This document shows, piece by piece, positions 9,202 through 18,422 of a stretch of DNA of 46,612 bases. Both the position numbers and the translations under genes were made by a program. This stretch comes from a virus. How positions within the stretch are numbered: position 1 is the first letter of the stretch; every line of letters begins with the position of its first letter. Under the pieces are notes generated by a model. It had not been told where the DNA came from. It saw only the letters and a program-made list of their open reading frames with translations, and ran no database searches. Where the stretch lies: the IMG/VR virus record IMGVR_UViG_3300046003_006061, positions 1-46,612 of that record. The stretch is one strand, 5' to 3'.

Positions 9202-9828
9202 ATGAAACAGCTCCCATATAAACACACCTGCCAAAAATGTAATACTGATTTTAGATCTAAAGGTCCTAATAACAAATATTGTTCTAAAGAATGTAAACAT
9301 CAAGCCTATTTTGAAAATTCTAAATTATATGATTGTAAAGTCTGTAATAAGAAATTTCAAGGTTCTACAAACAATCAAAATAAGTTCTGTTCTAAAAAAT
9401 GTTATGGGTCTAGAATGGCTACCCATCCTCAAGAATTCAATATGGTTCAACGAGCTGAAAAAATGAGAGAAGGTTGGGATGAAAGTTCTTGGAAAAAGTC
9501 AATTCAAACTCGAAAAGATAATGGTAACATTATTGATTGGGATATAGCTAAATGGAAACAATATTGGCGTAGATGTAATGATTTAACACGTAAAATCCGC
9601 GCTGAAATGTTAAAATCATGGGATGGTATTGATTACATAGATGGTGAGTATATACGCGATAATCTCGCGTTACATTACACACATGGTGATTACCCAACAT
9701 TAGACCATCTTATACCTCGAAGTGAAGGATTTAAAAAAGGATTAACACCATACGAAATTACCACCTCAGAAAATCTGAAGTGGACTAAAAGAAGAAATAA
9801 TAGTAAAAAATATAATAATGGATTTTAG
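9202..9828 (+). CDS. HNH endonuclease with two zinc-finger-like modules
   Basis: Two Cys4-type modules lie in the first 75 residues (CQKC...CSKEC and CKVC...CSKKC). A C-terminal HNH nuclease core follows: LDHLIPRSEG, then SENLKWTKRRNNSKK. This is the arrangement of free-standing phage homing endonucleases, which cut DNA and spread into intact loci. It sits between queE and folE in its own unit, splitting the deazaguanine genes. The end overlaps the next gene by 11 bases. Confidence 0.85.
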   Translation: MKQLPYKHTCQKCNTDFRSKGPNNKYCSKECKHQAYFENSKLYDCKVCNKKFQGSTNNQNKFCSKKCYGSRMATHPQEFNMVQRAEKMREGWDESSWKKSIQTRKDNGNIIDWDIAKWKQYWRRCNDLTRKIRAEMLKSWDGIDYIDGEYIRDNLALHYTHGDYPTLDHLIPRSEGFKKGLTPYEITTSENLKWTKRRNNSKKYNNGF

Positions 9829-11976: not shown

Positions 11977-13707
11977 ATGAGTTATAAAAACATTTCAACC
12001 CAAACATTGGGTAAAAATAGACATGCTATTACATTATGGACAGATGATGGTGTAGAGCAATACGAATTTCAAAATTATGCCTACGAGAAATGTTACCAAA
12101 ATGAAGCGACTCATACTGGTTTAAAAGGAGAACCATTACGTAAAATTACATATTGGGATAAAAATAACCCATTCCTGCATTATCATGATATGCCGGTTCA
12201 TCAAAAATTCCTAATAGACAAATATGGAACTAATGATGAACCGTCTATTACTCATCAAGAAATATTTTTTGATATTGAGATTGAAATGGGTGGTGCTTTA
12301 ACTCCTGAATATATTAGAAGAGCTCCTAAACCTGTTACATCAATTGCTTGGTGGCATCGTCAGCATGATAAATGGTATATCTTAATTTTAGACAAACATA
12401 ACCATATAGAAAAAACAGTAATAGGTAATAAAACTATAATACCAGTACCTACTGAAAGAGATTTATTATCTAAATTTCTTAATTACTTAAATAAAGTCAA
12501 CCCCGATATTTTAATAGGTTATAATAGTGATTATTTTGATATACCTTACCTATATTATAGAATTTTAAATCAATTAGGTGAACGTAGGGCAAATGCTTTA
12601 TCCCCAATTGGTAAAGTTAAAGAACAAAAATTCACTAATGAGTCAGGAATGACCTTCTATAATGAAGACCAACCAATTAGAATTGAAGGTATGTATTCAT
12701 TAGATTATATAAGAATGCATAAAAAATATTCATTTTCGGATGAACCTTCTTATAAATTAGATGTATTAGGTGAAAAATATTGTAAACTTCCTAAAATTGA
12801 ATATGAAGGTAGTTTAGATAGGTTATTTGAAACCGATAAAGAAAAATTTATCGCTTATAACTTCCGAGATGTTGAGATTGTAAAAGAATTAGATGCTAAA
12901 TTCAACTACATCAACTTAACAAAAAACTTAGCACACAAAGGTAAAATACATTATGATGACGTTTACCAATCATCAAAAATTCATGATGGTGCTATTTCAG
13001 CTTATTTATTATCTCAAGATATAATTCCTCCATCAAGAGATAGAAATCCAATTAAAAAAGCTAATTACGCTGGTGGTTATTTATTTTGCCCCAAAGCAGG
13101 TCTATATAGATACATGTTTGATGAGGATTTAACATCACTATATCCTTCAATTATTATGTCTCTTAATATTGGTAAAGAAACTTTAGTAGGTAGAATTATA
13201 GATATTAATGATAGAAATAATCGATTAGGTTTAAATGATTTAATAGAAGATACCTCTGATAGACCACACGTAACTGAATGGTTTATGAATAGAGATAAAT
13301 TCAATAAAATTGATTGGACTAGTTCTAAATTAGTTAAACTACTTCAACAATATGATTTGGCTATCTCAGCAAATGGTGTTATATTTCGTACTGACACGCC
13401 ATCAGTATTATCAACTATATTAGATAAATGGTTTGATGAAAGGGTATTGTATAAAAACCAAATGAAAAAGGCTTACAAGTCTGGTGATACAGTAGCAGGT
13501 GAGAAATATCACTTACTGCAATATACAATGAAGATCTTATTAAATAGTTTATATGGCGCTACAGCATTACCTTCATTTAGATACGGAAATGTTATATTAT
13601 CAGAAGCTATTACATTAAGTGGTCAAAGAATTATTCAAGAATCAGCACTTTGTGCTAATAGACATATGAATAAGGTATTAAAGGGAGAAATTAAATTAGA
13701 TATATAA
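11977..13707 (+). CDS. 43A: Family B DNA polymerase, N-terminal part (gp43-like)
   Basis: Carries the 3'-5' exonuclease domain: Exo I FFDIEIE (D99, E101), Exo II IGYNSDYFD and Exo III YNFRDVE. Polymerase motif A (DLTSLYPS, D384) and motif B (KILLNSLYG, K519-G527) follow. The protein stops at residue 576, before motif C, which carries the second catalytic aspartate pair. Motif C is at the start of the separate gene at 13972. The two halves together match a T4 gp43-type enzyme of about 890 residues, so this is a split polymerase. The stop overlaps the next ATG (TAATG). No intein sequence is visible at the break. Confidence 0.93.
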   Translation: MSYKNISTQTLGKNRHAITLWTDDGVEQYEFQNYAYEKCYQNEATHTGLKGEPLRKITYWDKNNPFLHYHDMPVHQKFLIDKYGTNDEPSITHQEIFFDIEIEMGGALTPEYIRRAPKPVTSIAWWHRQHDKWYILILDKHNHIEKTVIGNKTIIPVPTERDLLSKFLNYLNKVNPDILIGYNSDYFDIPYLYYRILNQLGERRANALSPIGKVKEQKFTNESGMTFYNEDQPIRIEGMYSLDYIRMHKKYSFSDEPSYKLDVLGEKYCKLPKIEYEGSLDRLFETDKEKFIAYNFRDVEIVKELDAKFNYINLTKNLAHKGKIHYDDVYQSSKIHDGAISAYLLSQDIIPPSRDRNPIKKANYAGGYLFCPKAGLYRYMFDEDLTSLYPSIIMSLNIGKETLVGRIIDINDRNNRLGLNDLIEDTSDRPHVTEWFMNRDKFNKIDWTSSKLVKLLQQYDLAISANGVIFRTDTPSVLSTILDKWFDERVLYKNQMKKAYKSGDTVAGEKYHLLQYTMKILLNSLYGATALPSFRYGNVILSEAITLSGQRIIQESALCANRHMNKVLKGEIKLDI

Positions 13708-13970
13708 TGGCACTAAAAGGACAATCAATTAGAAATGGAGTTACTATTACTCAAAACGGTAAACCAGTTGATAAAAAAGTAATTATCGAGGCAAGTGAAA
13801 GTTGGACTGAACAACAAGAATCATTCTTTAAGAAAATGCTTAAACAAGGTGGTAAATGTAAAGTAGGTGGAGAGTTATATGATATTACTCTTAAAGAGAG
13901 ATCTGACATTGACTCAAGAGGGAACAGACCAATAAATATACCTCCAATACCAGGAGAAAGAACATTTTAA
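13707..13970 (+). CDS. Hypothetical protein inserted between the polymerase halves, 87 aa
   Basis: A small basic protein with a Gly/Lys-rich N-terminus and a helix (ESWTEQQESFFKKMLKQGGKCKVGGE). It lies exactly between the two polymerase genes, overlapping the first by 1 base and ending 1 base before the second. It has no HNH, GIY-YIG or LAGLIDADG motif, so it is not an obvious homing endonuclease. It might be a remnant of the insertion that split the gene, or a third subunit. Family not recognised. Confidence 0.7.
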   Translation: MALKGQSIRNGVTITQNGKPVDKKVIIEASESWTEQQESFFKKMLKQGGKCKVGGELYDITLKERSDIDSRGNRPINIPPIPGERTF

Positions 13971-13971
13971 T

Positions 13972-14907
13972 ATGAAACATTTAGAAGATACTCCATGGTG
14001 GATTTGTGATGAAGGAGACTTCAACTTTTGCGCCTATGTGGATACTGACTCTAATTACTTTAATGCTGAACCTTTACTAAAGCATCTATACCCTGACTTT
14101 GATGAAAAGCCAGATGATGAAAAAGATGATTTACTAGAAAAAGTAGCTCTAAAATATCAAGATATTATAACTGAACATTATAATAATTTAGCTAGGGATA
14201 CTTTCAATATTAAATCTCACCGTTTGGAAATGAAAACTGAGTGTGTTATTCGTTCAGCTTATTTTAGAGCTACAAGACGATATGCTCAATGGATTACGAA
14301 AAAAGAAGGTATTGCTAAGGAGGAATTAGATATTAAAGGTTTAGAATTTAAAAAAGCTAACTTCCCTAAATATTTTGGTAAGTTTTATCAAGAAATTCTA
14401 GAATTAATTATTAAAGGTACTCCACAAGATATAATTAATAGTAAAATACAAGACTTTAGAAATGAAGCAACTGGCAAAGATGTAGATTTTACCTTAATTG
14501 CTAATCCAACATCAGTTAAAGTATTAAATGATTATGTTGAAGCTGTTCCTAAACCCGGTAAAATATTATCTACACTTAAAAAAGGTGCCGGTGCAAATGT
14601 TAAAGCAGCTACTTGTCATAATGATTTATTAAGATTCTGGGGACTAGATAAAGATCATAGTCAAATTGTTCAAGGTGATAAAATTAAATGGGTTTATTTA
14701 AAAGATAATCCATATCAAATGGAAGCTATAGCTTTTTTAGAATTTGATTTACCTCAAAAAATGAGAGATTTTATCAATGAATATATTGATAGAGAGAAAA
14801 GTTTCGAAAGTATATTACAAAATAAATTACAAGGATTTTATGATGATCTCGAATGGGTGCTACCTCCATCAAATCCTTTAATATATAAATTCTTTACATT
14901 CAATTAA
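13972..14907 (+). CDS. 43B: Family B DNA polymerase, C-terminal part (gp43-like)
   Basis: Begins about 20 residues before motif C, YVDTDSNYF (D24-S27), which holds the catalytic aspartates. A thumb-type region follows: RRYAQWITKKEG, KGLEFKKANFPK, and the final LIYKFFTFN resembles the clamp-binding tail of T4-type polymerases. The 311 residues complete the missing part of the upstream gene without an evident gap. The active site can only form if both proteins associate. It is followed 2 bases later by the sliding clamp. Confidence 0.92.
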   Translation: MKHLEDTPWWICDEGDFNFCAYVDTDSNYFNAEPLLKHLYPDFDEKPDDEKDDLLEKVALKYQDIITEHYNNLARDTFNIKSHRLEMKTECVIRSAYFRATRRYAQWITKKEGIAKEELDIKGLEFKKANFPKYFGKFYQEILELIIKGTPQDIINSKIQDFRNEATGKDVDFTLIANPTSVKVLNDYVEAVPKPGKILSTLKKGAGANVKAATCHNDLLRFWGLDKDHSQIVQGDKIKWVYLKDNPYQMEAIAFLEFDLPQKMRDFINEYIDREKSFESILQNKLQGFYDDLEWVLPPSNPLIYKFFTFN

Positions 14908-14908
14908 A

Positions 14909-15631
14909 ATGGAAAAAAAACTATTAGTACAGGTTATAGAAAGTTTTTATTTAAATGGTTTATCTAGCCAAGTTAAATTTAAAGTTAAAGATAACCAAGT
15001 TCATATTAAATTTGCTACTGACAATAAAGATTGTATTGGTGAAGTTAAAGCCCCTATAACCTTAGAAGATTGTGAGATTGGTATATTTAATACAGGTCAA
15101 TTATTAAAATTACTTAATATAACAAACGAGTATATAGAATTAAAACTTGAAAAACAAGGTAGCCACTTCCTTAAACTTCATGTCAGTGACAACCAATTTG
15201 ATTTATCATATAATTTAAGTGATTTGGGTCTAATCCAAGAACCAGGTGTAGTGCCTAATTTACCACCACATGACTTGGAGTTTGATATTAATTTTGATTT
15301 TACTCAAAAATATGTTAAAGCTCATAACGCCTTAGATAAACCACCAAGGTTTGAAATTGGAGTAACTAAAGATTTCCAAAAAGAAAATGTTGTTAGTTTT
15401 ATGGTAGGTGAAAAATCAACTTATTCAAATAAAGTAAATTTTACTGAAAATGGTAATATTATAAATGAAATTAAACCTGTAGCATTTAGCGCTGTTAATT
15501 TTAGAGAAATAGTTTCTGTTAGTAAAAATGCTAAAGGTAAAGCTTATCTATTTAAAGATGGGTTATTAAAAATTAAATTAGAAGAAGATGGTATTGAAAC
15601 TGAATATTTCTTAGTGGCCTTCCATGAGTAA
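14909..15631 (+). CDS. 45: Sliding clamp (gp45-like)
   Basis: A 240-residue beta-rich protein placed directly after the polymerase, close in size to T4 gp45 (228 residues). Repeated strand patterns fit a two-domain clamp fold that trimerises around DNA. No sharp motif exists for this family, so the call rests on size, composition, gene order (polymerase, clamp, clamp loader) and the general pattern (for example IFNTGQLLKLLNI). The clamp would tether the split polymerase. Confidence 0.75.
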   Translation: MEKKLLVQVIESFYLNGLSSQVKFKVKDNQVHIKFATDNKDCIGEVKAPITLEDCEIGIFNTGQLLKLLNITNEYIELKLEKQGSHFLKLHVSDNQFDLSYNLSDLGLIQEPGVVPNLPPHDLEFDINFDFTQKYVKAHNALDKPPRFEIGVTKDFQKENVVSFMVGEKSTYSNKVNFTENGNIINEIKPVAFSAVNFREIVSVSKNAKGKAYLFKDGLLKIKLEEDGIETEYFLVAFHE

Positions 15632-15724: not shown

Positions 15725-16126
15725 ATGAGTACACAATTCAATGAATGGGATATCTTATTCCACAATTTCTTCTATCCGACTAGCGGATTTGGCTCAGCAG
15801 CCACAACAAAACAACCACACCCACTTAACATTTTTTATGACGAAACAGGCCTTTACTTTGAAGTGGCATGTACTGGTCTTACTAAAGATGATGTTAAAAT
15901 AGATATCGAAGATGATATCTTAAAAATTACCTACAATAAAGATCCAGAAGAGCTCCACCCAGGAACAATCCATAGAGGATTGGCAAAGAGAGCTTTCAAT
16001 TTAGGTTATAAAATTTCCAGTAAATATGATTTAAGTAAAACTGATGGTAAACTAGAAAATGGTTTATTAGAAATCTTTATTCCTATTACTGAAAAAGCTA
16101 AACCGAAAACTATTAAAATAAAATAA
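15725..16126 (+). CDS. Small heat-shock protein (Hsp20/alpha-crystallin family)
   Basis: A 133-residue holdase with the alpha-crystallin domain: IFYDETGLYFEVACTGLTKDDVKIDIE, a central IHRGLAKRAFNLGYKIS strand region, DGKLENGLLEIFIP and the C-terminal KTIKIK, which takes the place of the I-x-I tail. It would bind unfolding proteins in the cytosol. It lies between the sliding clamp and the GroES/GroEL genes, forming a chaperone island. It is flanked by a complementary sequence pair (15656-15664 and 16132-16140). Confidence 0.92.
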   Translation: MSTQFNEWDILFHNFFYPTSGFGSAATTKQPHPLNIFYDETGLYFEVACTGLTKDDVKIDIEDDILKITYNKDPEELHPGTIHRGLAKRAFNLGYKISSKYDLSKTDGKLENGLLEIFIPITEKAKPKTIKIK

Positions 16127-16147
16127 AAAACTCTCGCCCTGAGTTTG
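16127..16147 (+). terminator. Hairpin after hsp20
   Basis: AAACTC - TCGCCCT - GAGTTT forms a 6-bp stem with a 7-base loop at about 16128-16146. The right arm contains the TTGG of the next promoter. There is no long T run, so it may be a processing or pairing element rather than a strong terminator. The loop TCGCCCT is complementary to AGGGCGA in the leader upstream of hsp20. Confidence 0.45.
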
Positions 16148-16180
16148 GTTATCGGTTTATTCTCACGTATATTACATTAA
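16145..16180 (+). promoter_or_regulatory. Phage promoter for the groES-groEL unit
   Basis: TTGG at 16145, 20 bases after the TTG to TATATT at 16168-16173 in CACGTATATTACATTAAA. The ATG at 16194 has the context AAGTTATATG. It would drive the 100-residue gene, GroES and GroEL. Confidence 0.7.
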
Positions 16181-16193
16181 ATAAATAAGTTAT

Positions 16194-16496
16194 ATGGCAA
16201 ATCCAAATTTTAAAGGTAGACAAAAAGGTTCTATCAAAAAAACATCAATTATTGAGGATCCACTTTTAGGGGATTATAAAATAATCTTTGATGAAGAAAG
16301 TTATAATTTAGTTTTAACTGACCCTGAAACTAAGAAAGAAAAAATATTAGGTTATTACACTCAATTAGGTAGCGCATTAAAACGTGTTGTTAAAAACCAA
16401 ACAGTTGAGAAAAAACCTGTATATACTCTCAAAGAATACCTTACCGAATTAGAAACAACTTTAAACAATTTAAAAACCTTAGTTAACCATGAGTAA
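16194..16496 (+). CDS. Hypothetical protein, 100 aa
   Basis: A basic N-terminus (NPNFKGRQKGSIKK) precedes a strand-rich middle and a C-terminal helix (LTELETTLNNLKTLVNHE). It overlaps the groES start by 8 bases and shares its promoter, so it may be linked to the chaperonins or only co-transcribed. Family not recognised. Confidence 0.7.
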   Translation: MANPNFKGRQKGSIKKTSIIEDPLLGDYKIIFDEESYNLVLTDPETKKEKILGYYTQLGSALKRVVKNQTVEKKPVYTLKEYLTELETTLNNLKTLVNHE

Positions 16497-16782
16497 ATTA
16501 AATCCCAGAGAGGGTCACATCATTTTAAAACAAATTGAAACTAGCGAGACTACAGTAGGTAATATTATTATCCCTGATATGGGTGATGATAGATCACTTA
16601 TAGCTGAAGTTGTAGCAGTATCAGATGTTTACAATTACCATAAAGGTGAATTCATTCCAACTGACTTAAAAGTGGGTATGAAAGTTACAATTCCACCAAT
16701 GGGAGCACAAAAAATTAAAATTGATAATGTAGATTATCTTATTATGGCTCAAAATAACATTCCAGCAATTATAGAAGATTAA
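16489..16782 (+). CDS. groES: Co-chaperonin GroES
   Basis: A 97-residue cpn10, the same length as E. coli GroES. The mobile-loop hydrophobic tripeptide is present as GNIIIPD (in place of GGIVL), followed by LIAEVVAVSD, KVGMKVTIPPMGAQKI and the C-terminal YLIMAQNNIPAIIED. It would cap GroEL to close the folding cage. The groEL gene follows after 2 bases. Most T4-type phages carry only a GroES analogue (gp31) and use host GroEL; here both genes are present. Confidence 0.9.
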   Translation: MSKLNPREGHIILKQIETSETTVGNIIIPDMGDDRSLIAEVVAVSDVYNYHKGEFIPTDLKVGMKVTIPPMGAQKIKIDNVDYLIMAQNNIPAIIED

Positions 16783-16784
16783 TT

Positions 16785-18422
16785 ATGACAGAAACAGTAT
16801 TCGGAACAGAATTAAAAAGTAAATTATTAAATGGTGTTGAGAAGCTAAATAATAGTGTATCCTCAACCTTAGGACCAGCAGGTAGAACAGTCTTAATTAA
16901 GGACAATCAAGGTCAATTAACCATTACTAAAGATGGTGTATCAGTTGCTAAAGCATTTGGTGACTTAGAAGATCAAGTAGAATCAATTGGGGCACAAGCT
17001 GTAAAACAAGTATCAATCAAAACTGGTAATTTAGTTGGTGATGGTACTACTACATCAACTTGTTTAGCACATGCTATTTTACAAGAAGGATTAAAACATG
17101 TAGCAGCAGGACAAAATCCAGTTGAAATTAAAAAAGGAATTGATGCCGCTGTAGAGGAAATTAAATCTGCATTAGATAACTTAACAGAAGATATCTCGGA
17201 TAATCAACAAATAAAAGAAGTTGCTACTATATCTGGTAACAATGATGAGGAAGTAGGTAATTTAATTGCTACTGCTTTAGAAAAAGTGGGTAGAGATGGA
17301 ATTGTAGCCATTGAACAATCAAAAACCGGAGAAACGTCTTTAGAGATTGTTGAGGGTATGCAATTTGATAGAGGTTACAAATCACCTTATTTTGTAACTG
17401 ATAATAACACTATGAACGCGTTATTAGACAATCCATATATCTTAATTTATAATGGTAGAATTGGTAACGTAAACGAATTAGTAAATGTATTAACATTAGC
17501 TAACTCAGAAACCAGAGCATTATTAATTGTAGCTGAAGATATTGACGGTGAAGCTTTAGCTTTAACAATTGTTAACAAAGCAAGAGGGGTTGTAAAAGTA
17601 GCTGCTGTTAAAGCTCCTGAATTTGGAGATAGAAGAACAATGGCATTAGAAGACTTAGCTGTTATTACAGGTGGTCAAGTATTATCTAAAGACAAAGGTC
17701 ATAAATTAGATAAAATTGATATCGCTACATTAAAACAAGTATTAGGTCAATCACGTTCAGCTATTGTAGGTAAAGATAAAACAACAATTGTTGATGGTAG
17801 AGGTGAGGAAGAAGCTATTACTTTAAGAGCTGAAGAAATAAAAACTCAAATTGATGGAGCAACTTCACCATTCGAAAAAGAAAAATTACAAGAACGTTTA
17901 GGTAAACTAATCGGAGGAGTAGCTATCATTAACGTTGGTGGTAATAGTGAGTTAGAAATTAAAGAGAAAAAAGATAGAGTAGAAGATGCTTTATTTGCTA
18001 CAAAAGCCGCTCTTGAAGAAGGAATTGTAATTGGTGGTGGTACAGCTTTAATGTACGCTAGAAAAGCAATTACATTTGAAGGTTCAAATGACTTTGTAAA
18101 TGGTAAGAAAATTGTTTATAGAGCAGCGGGAGCTCCATTCATTAAGATTTTAACTAACGCTGGACATGATGTTACCGAAATTCAATATCTAGGTTCTCAA
18201 TTAACTGATTCAGAAAAAGGAAGCAATTGGGTAGGTCTTAACTATAAAGATTTATCAACAGTAAACTTTAAAGAATTAGGTATTATTGATCCTAAAAAAG
18301 TAACTAGAGTAGCATTAGAAAATGCAGCTTCAGTTGCGGGTACATTATTGACAACTGAGTCAGTAATTTATGAAAAAATTGAAGATAAAGAAGAATCAAA
18401 TCCTATGCAAGGTATGATGTAA
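16785..18422 (+). CDS. groEL: Chaperonin GroEL
   Basis: A complete 545-residue group I chaperonin. ATP-binding and catalytic features are intact: [19 protein letters not shown] (D50, matching D52 of E. coli), GDGTTT (85-90) and [15 protein letters not shown] (D401, matching D398). The apical region ([32 protein letters not shown]) is present, and the C-terminus ends in QGMM, a short form of the GGM tail. It probably forms a functional ATP-driven cage with the adjacent GroES. There is no sign of decay. A perfect hairpin follows the stop. Confidence 0.97.

Follow-up and report, generated by a model that had tools for sequence, protein, structure and literature searches.

The window analyzed here, that is, the whole stretch of 46,612 nt of IMG/VR record IMGVR_UViG_3300046003_006061 (a 46.6-kb fragment), carries a T4-type family-B DNA polymerase (PolB) gene divided between two open frames, the N chain and the C chain, with a small gene, called X here, at the break. 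The three frames lie where an earlier note on this DNA had placed them (Table 1). The N chain contains the exonuclease domain, motif A, the fingers, and motif B, and has Pfam matches to PF03104 (3.6e-20) and to PF00136 positions 23-202 (2.9e-21), while the C chain contains a leader, motif C, RRY, the rest of the palm, the thumb, and a hydrophobic C terminus (KFFTF). In phrog_262 (DNA polymerase), the N chain covers positions 10-568 and the C chain positions 565-841 (C match 9e-46), complementary stretches that identify them as parts of one protein, with no piece missing or repeated. The claim of the note that the polymerase is split between motifs B and C, with motifs A and B in one chain and DTDS in the other, is thus borne out, and so is its corollary, that an active site with motif A in N and motif C in C must assemble from two chains. 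Taken together, the chains have the exonuclease, palm motifs A, B, and C, and the thumb in the order of gp43, which is usually, though not universally, a single polypeptide and is here two open frames. Both junctions of X involve 1 base, as had been observed: at TA-ATG the start of X overlaps the stop of N by 1 base, and at TAA-T-ATG 1 base separates X from C.

Table 1. Features of the split polymerase locus in the window
Feature	Position	Strand	Basis or location
N chain of split family-B DNA polymerase, 576 aa	11977..13707	+	PF03104, PF00136, phrog_262
Motif A, DLTSLYPSII	13126-13155		N chain
Motif B, KILLNSLYG	13531-13557		N chain residues 519-527
The break: end of post-motif-B helix to end of C-chain leader	13681..14019	+	alignment with unsplit L312, L313, L303, Mel-JY01, KVP40
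Gene X, 87 aa, at the break	13707..13970	+	open frame; function not assignable from matches
C chain of split polymerase, 311 aa	13972..14907	+	phrog_262 positions 565-841
Conserved 16-aa leader	13972-14019		start of C chain
Motif C, DTDS	14041-14052		C chain residues 24-27
RRY	14275-14283		C chain
gp45-like sliding clamp, 240 aa, next replication-cluster gene	14909..15631	+	weak PF02768 match 0.0038

Judging by the sequences, by modeling, and by analogy with split polymerases already described, the locus very likely encodes a two-chain polymerase. Both chains are under purifying selection, with ratios of nonsynonymous to synonymous substitution (dN/dS) of 0.09-0.15 for the N chain (versus 15 relatives) and 0.07-0.16 for the C chain, and the catalytic motifs are intact on both halves. 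The N chain aligns with RB69 gp43 residues 180-609, and the motif C aspartates of that protein, residues 621 and 623, have their counterparts in the C chain. Modeled as one sequence that reads through the gap, N and C reached a predicted local distance difference test score (pLDDT) of 85.9 and a predicted template modeling score (pTM) of 0.80, with low confidence only in the gap or linker. The match of this model to RB69 gp43 extends over the full length (for the best entries, template modeling scores of 0.71-0.75 by query and 0.77-0.84 by target), and the likeness to the RB69 and T4 enzymes, which are one chain, covers overall fold and motif order. One message would serve for both halves, with translation coupled at the starts (ATGA where they abut; TAATG and TAATATG here), and the two products would complement each other in a single RB69 gp43-like body, bringing D384 of motif A (N chain) together with D24/D26 of motif C (C chain) in one active site.

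Split PolB genes are already known as a kind. The gp43A/gp43B pair of Aeromonas phages, invoked as a precedent in the earlier note, is a real split gp43: phages 25 and 44RR encode a T4-type PolB as two chains side by side, the gap of phage 25 holds a homing nuclease, and, as summarized in PMC2988022 (citing Petrov 2010), the split proteins of phage 25 co-purify and have polymerase activity. For the position of the break the precedent does not serve. The gp43A of phage 25 has only 498 aa, and the boundary between phrog_2062 and phrog_1918 falls near N residue 500, which puts the Aeromonas break before motif B, whereas the break in the window comes after N residue 576, past motif B and just before motif C; with its different position, it is an independent split. 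In Methanothermobacter thermautotrophicus (Kelman 1999), the catalytic domains of PolB reportedly lie on two genes, both needed for activity, but this case is archaeal and the genes are said to be far apart. In the OM43 phages MEP401 and MEP402, two ORFs encode a family-A DNA polymerase and flank a small ORF of unknown function (PMC10580990), a likeness of layout in a different polymerase family and another phage group. The PolB of the jumbo phage MIJ3 is divided over two genes that have another gene between them, with a putative split intein (PMC6892783); here no intein parts were found.

The split is common to a large clade of T4-type phages, all uncultured and some of them binned with Flavobacteriales; many of these relatives are in IMG/VR. 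Among 180 distinct contigs with both halves recognizable, 173 are split and 7 unsplit, with nearly all splits at the same palm loop just before motif C; LR756508, which has inteins and is a case apart, is counted among the 173. The gap holds X in 133 of the 180 loci, the halves abut without X in 25, and 15 have other genes only. As these totals pool several searches, some of them seeded with X, a search with the C half, in which X was not used, gives a fairer count: 46 of its 71 loci have X between the halves, 18 have abutting halves, and 7 have other genes only (in 9 further loci the N half was off the contig stretch). The C halves have a mean column identity of 72%, and the same conserved leader is found in 16 diverse C halves (alignment A2). 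Abutting halves mostly overlap as ATGA, which places N and C in different frames and leaves no space for an intron, and no Rfam covariance model of group I or II introns matched at the gathering score. Sequencing error is rejected because the break recurs across the clade. Error and splicing, which the earlier note had raised as ways in which the split could be spurious, are thus excluded for the clade, as is an artifact of fragmentation.

The PolB of LR756508, a 484-kb phage (L204, 4364-12288), appears to be broken in the same loop; its halves are approximately 3 kb apart, and there is an intein-like insertion at each of motifs B and C. An N chain of 970 aa in another relative (L256:6871-9783) had looked like an extra split, which was rejected, as the region is an in-frame intein-like insert of approximately 390 aa in the exonuclease domain.

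Comparison with unsplit homologs (L312, L313, L303, Mel-JY01, and KVP40), a check that the earlier note had proposed, places the break in the loop before motif C. The close unsplit relatives are on two metagenome-assembled genome (MAG) contigs, L313 (882 aa) and L312 (888 aa), whose surroundings are the same as those of the split loci, with the gp45-like clamp directly after PolB and GroES/GroEL and the clamp loader downstream; in both, the break region is one continuous loop. This loop is short in KVP40, Mel-JY01, and L303 and approximately 15 residues longer in L312 and L313, and the leader of the split C chains, MKHLEDTPWWICDEGD, aligns with the extra loop. As the unsplit sisters already have the longer loop at the break site, the loop probably grew first and the gene split inside it later, although the alignment there is of variable sequence. 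A stop and restart, which the longer loop would have tolerated, may be what remained of a homing-type insertion like the HNH and GIY-YIG genes found in the gap today, and a nuclease-started split seems plausible. After fission, the gap would have become an ordinary intergenic slot of the replication operon, gaining and losing genes. In the trees the main split clade has a support of 99-100, and the unsplit L203 and L302-L304 branch outside it; an approximately unbiased test did not reject a single split origin (p 0.36), a result that is compatible with one origin and is no proof of it. Nothing remarkable was found in a search for repeats around the break. The N chains of L184 and L194 have longer tails (approximately 30 residues, ...ERNITPR... 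and ...ERNISPR...) before the gap, possibly a remnant of an earlier insertion.

The gap reaches approximately 4.2 kb and holds from none to several genes. Homing nucleases, which the earlier note had thought foreign to this case, occupy the same break in relatives, both HNH (L004/L018) and GIY-YIG (L052/L174), and further gap genes code for Smr, DUF4254/DUF6165, a pyridoxal phosphate (PLP) enzyme, a DAHP-type synthase, a transaldolase, and a SET protein. X is the commonest of these occupants and would be a small gene with a life of its own in the replication and nucleotide-metabolism cluster. Its family (alignment A1, 49 rows) has the invariant residues Q6, K23, F41, K43, Q47, and G48, and an AlphaFold2 model of X (pLDDT 70.7) consists of strands, two helices, and strands, followed by a loose tail. 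X had no convincing match in Pfam, PHROGs, PDB sequences, or Foldseek on PDB and BFVD, although with a model of only moderate quality a fold match could have been missed. The observation that X has no homing-nuclease motif stands: none of LAGLIDADG, HNH, or GIY-YIG was found, and the 49 members had no significant Pfam match, the sole nuclease-named one being Tox-HNH-HHH at 0.048 in 2 of them. An assignment of X as a homing nuclease or to a known family was therefore rejected after profile, sequence, and fold searches without a convincing match. No homolog was found in cultured phages by tblastn; a weak match in LR756508 was dismissed, as it falls in a polynucleotide-kinase-like ORF.

A tie between X and the break as such is not supported. 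In 25 of the 71 loci of the C-half search the gap lacks X, and X was not detected anywhere in 26 IMG/VR split-polymerase contigs of up to 110 kb, fragments in which absence is unproven. One Flavobacteriales MAG contig has abutting halves, with X at a distance of 8 kb, beside a QueC-like gene. Three contigs with a one-chain PolB carry X as well (neighbors named by eye): between GroEL and the clamp loader (G028), between NrdB-like and NrdA-like genes (G029), and near thymidylate synthase (G032). With splits lacking X and X present without a split, the two are separable both ways. X moves alone between distant phages as a single-gene cassette, to judge from sequence comparison: between L155 and L156, X has 94% DNA identity and the flanks 66-71%, while between L155 and L279 the N chains are 94% alike and X 76%. 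X and polymerase distances nevertheless correlate overall (Mantel r 0.66), which, despite the solo moves, indicates mixed inheritance, and X evolves faster than the polymerase (dN/dS 0.13-0.59).

Taken as a whole, we consider it likely that the locus encodes a working two-chain replicative PolB in which X is an exchanged tenant and no obligatory subunit; that X is such a tenant of the gap is probable in itself. Several observations weigh against this. In the model an artificial linker joins the halves into one chain, so it tells us that they complete one fold, and the association of free chains is beyond its reach. X lies directly after N in 99 of the 133 X-bearing loci, more regularly than a random tenant would, and between the halves in 46 of the 71 loci found independently of X; its place after N could reflect shared regulation or a favored insertion point, both being possible. 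In the trees, L312/L313 and the split L110 adjoin the main split clade in a mutual order that is not resolved, so two splits, or one split and a re-fusion, are possible.

The regular placement of X is also what would be expected if it were an assembly factor or third subunit, docking the halves or steadying the broken palm loop. Its coupling directly behind N, its frequency between the halves, its conserved core, and a dN/dS below 1 would fit such a role, which we regard as unlikely given the many split genomes without X and the unsplit ones with it, its swapping between polymerases only 59% alike, and its faster evolution. It is likewise unlikely that X, or an element carrying it, was the mobile gene whose entry caused the split. 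X does move as a cassette, homing nucleases are found in the same gap, and its neighbors elsewhere (by eye, ribonucleotide reductase, thymidylate synthase, and clamp-loader genes) are in part gene types favored by homing elements; but X is devoid of nuclease motifs and is absent from the early-branching split L110, many splits have neither X nor any scar beyond ATGA, and a nuclease would be the simpler cause, as X could have come later. Quite unlikely, in our estimation, is that X is a new small T4-type replisome accessory that binds the polymerase whether split or not, placed in the break since co-translation aids holoenzyme assembly, with genomes lacking X using an unrecognized substitute.

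Were the split PolB decaying or accessory, another polymerase would have to replicate the genome. The earlier note had raised a second intact polymerase, and for family B none was found in the sequences covered: the window's own record, a 46.6-kb fragment of its genome, has one PolB place, and the seven large relatives (95-173 kb) have one PolB place each, the second PF00136 match in G005 being its own C half. Three of these seven (G034, G035, and G005) do carry, with their split PolB, an ORF of 419-449 aa that resembles a divergent, short family-A DNA polymerase (L384:213-1490, L385:618-1967 on the minus strand, and L386:178-1437), with PF00476 below the cut-off and phrog_17 DNA polymerase at 1e-7 to 1e-9. 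On both halves selection is strongly purifying and the motifs are intact, the clamp and clamp loader lie nearby, and the same contigs have no DnaE and no second PolB, which together make this explanation very unlikely. Highly improbable is a joining of the halves after transcription or translation by an intron, programmed frameshift, or split intein, in favor of which stand the inteins in related PolB genes (the L256 exonuclease domain; LR756508 motifs B and C) and the split intein reported for MIJ3 PolB (PMC6892783), since the Rfam intron search was negative, the abutting forms have no intron space, the gap-facing ends (approximately 8 aa of N tail and 16 aa of C leader) are too short for intein parts and show no splicing motif by inspection, and X, read in another frame, fills the gap in the window, where five in-frame stops separate N from C.

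In this clade a replicative polymerase has undergone a stable fission across the palm, and no earlier description of the clade's split was found in the open-access literature searched; the clade also offers a natural two-chain PolB, broken at a position that no other phage example located shares. Stages coexist in it, from unsplit sisters and a lengthened loop, the likely intermediate, to abutting halves and gaps with none to several genes, which makes the survival of an essential enzyme after fission, and homing elements as its trigger, directly testable.

Elsewhere in the replication cluster of the window, Hsp20-like, GroES-like, and GroEL genes lie between the sliding clamp and the clamp loader (15725-18422), an arrangement kept in unsplit relatives. 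Upstream, between QueE-like and FolE-like genes, an ORF of 208 aa (9202-9828) has, by eye, a zinc-finger-like start and an HNH-like end.
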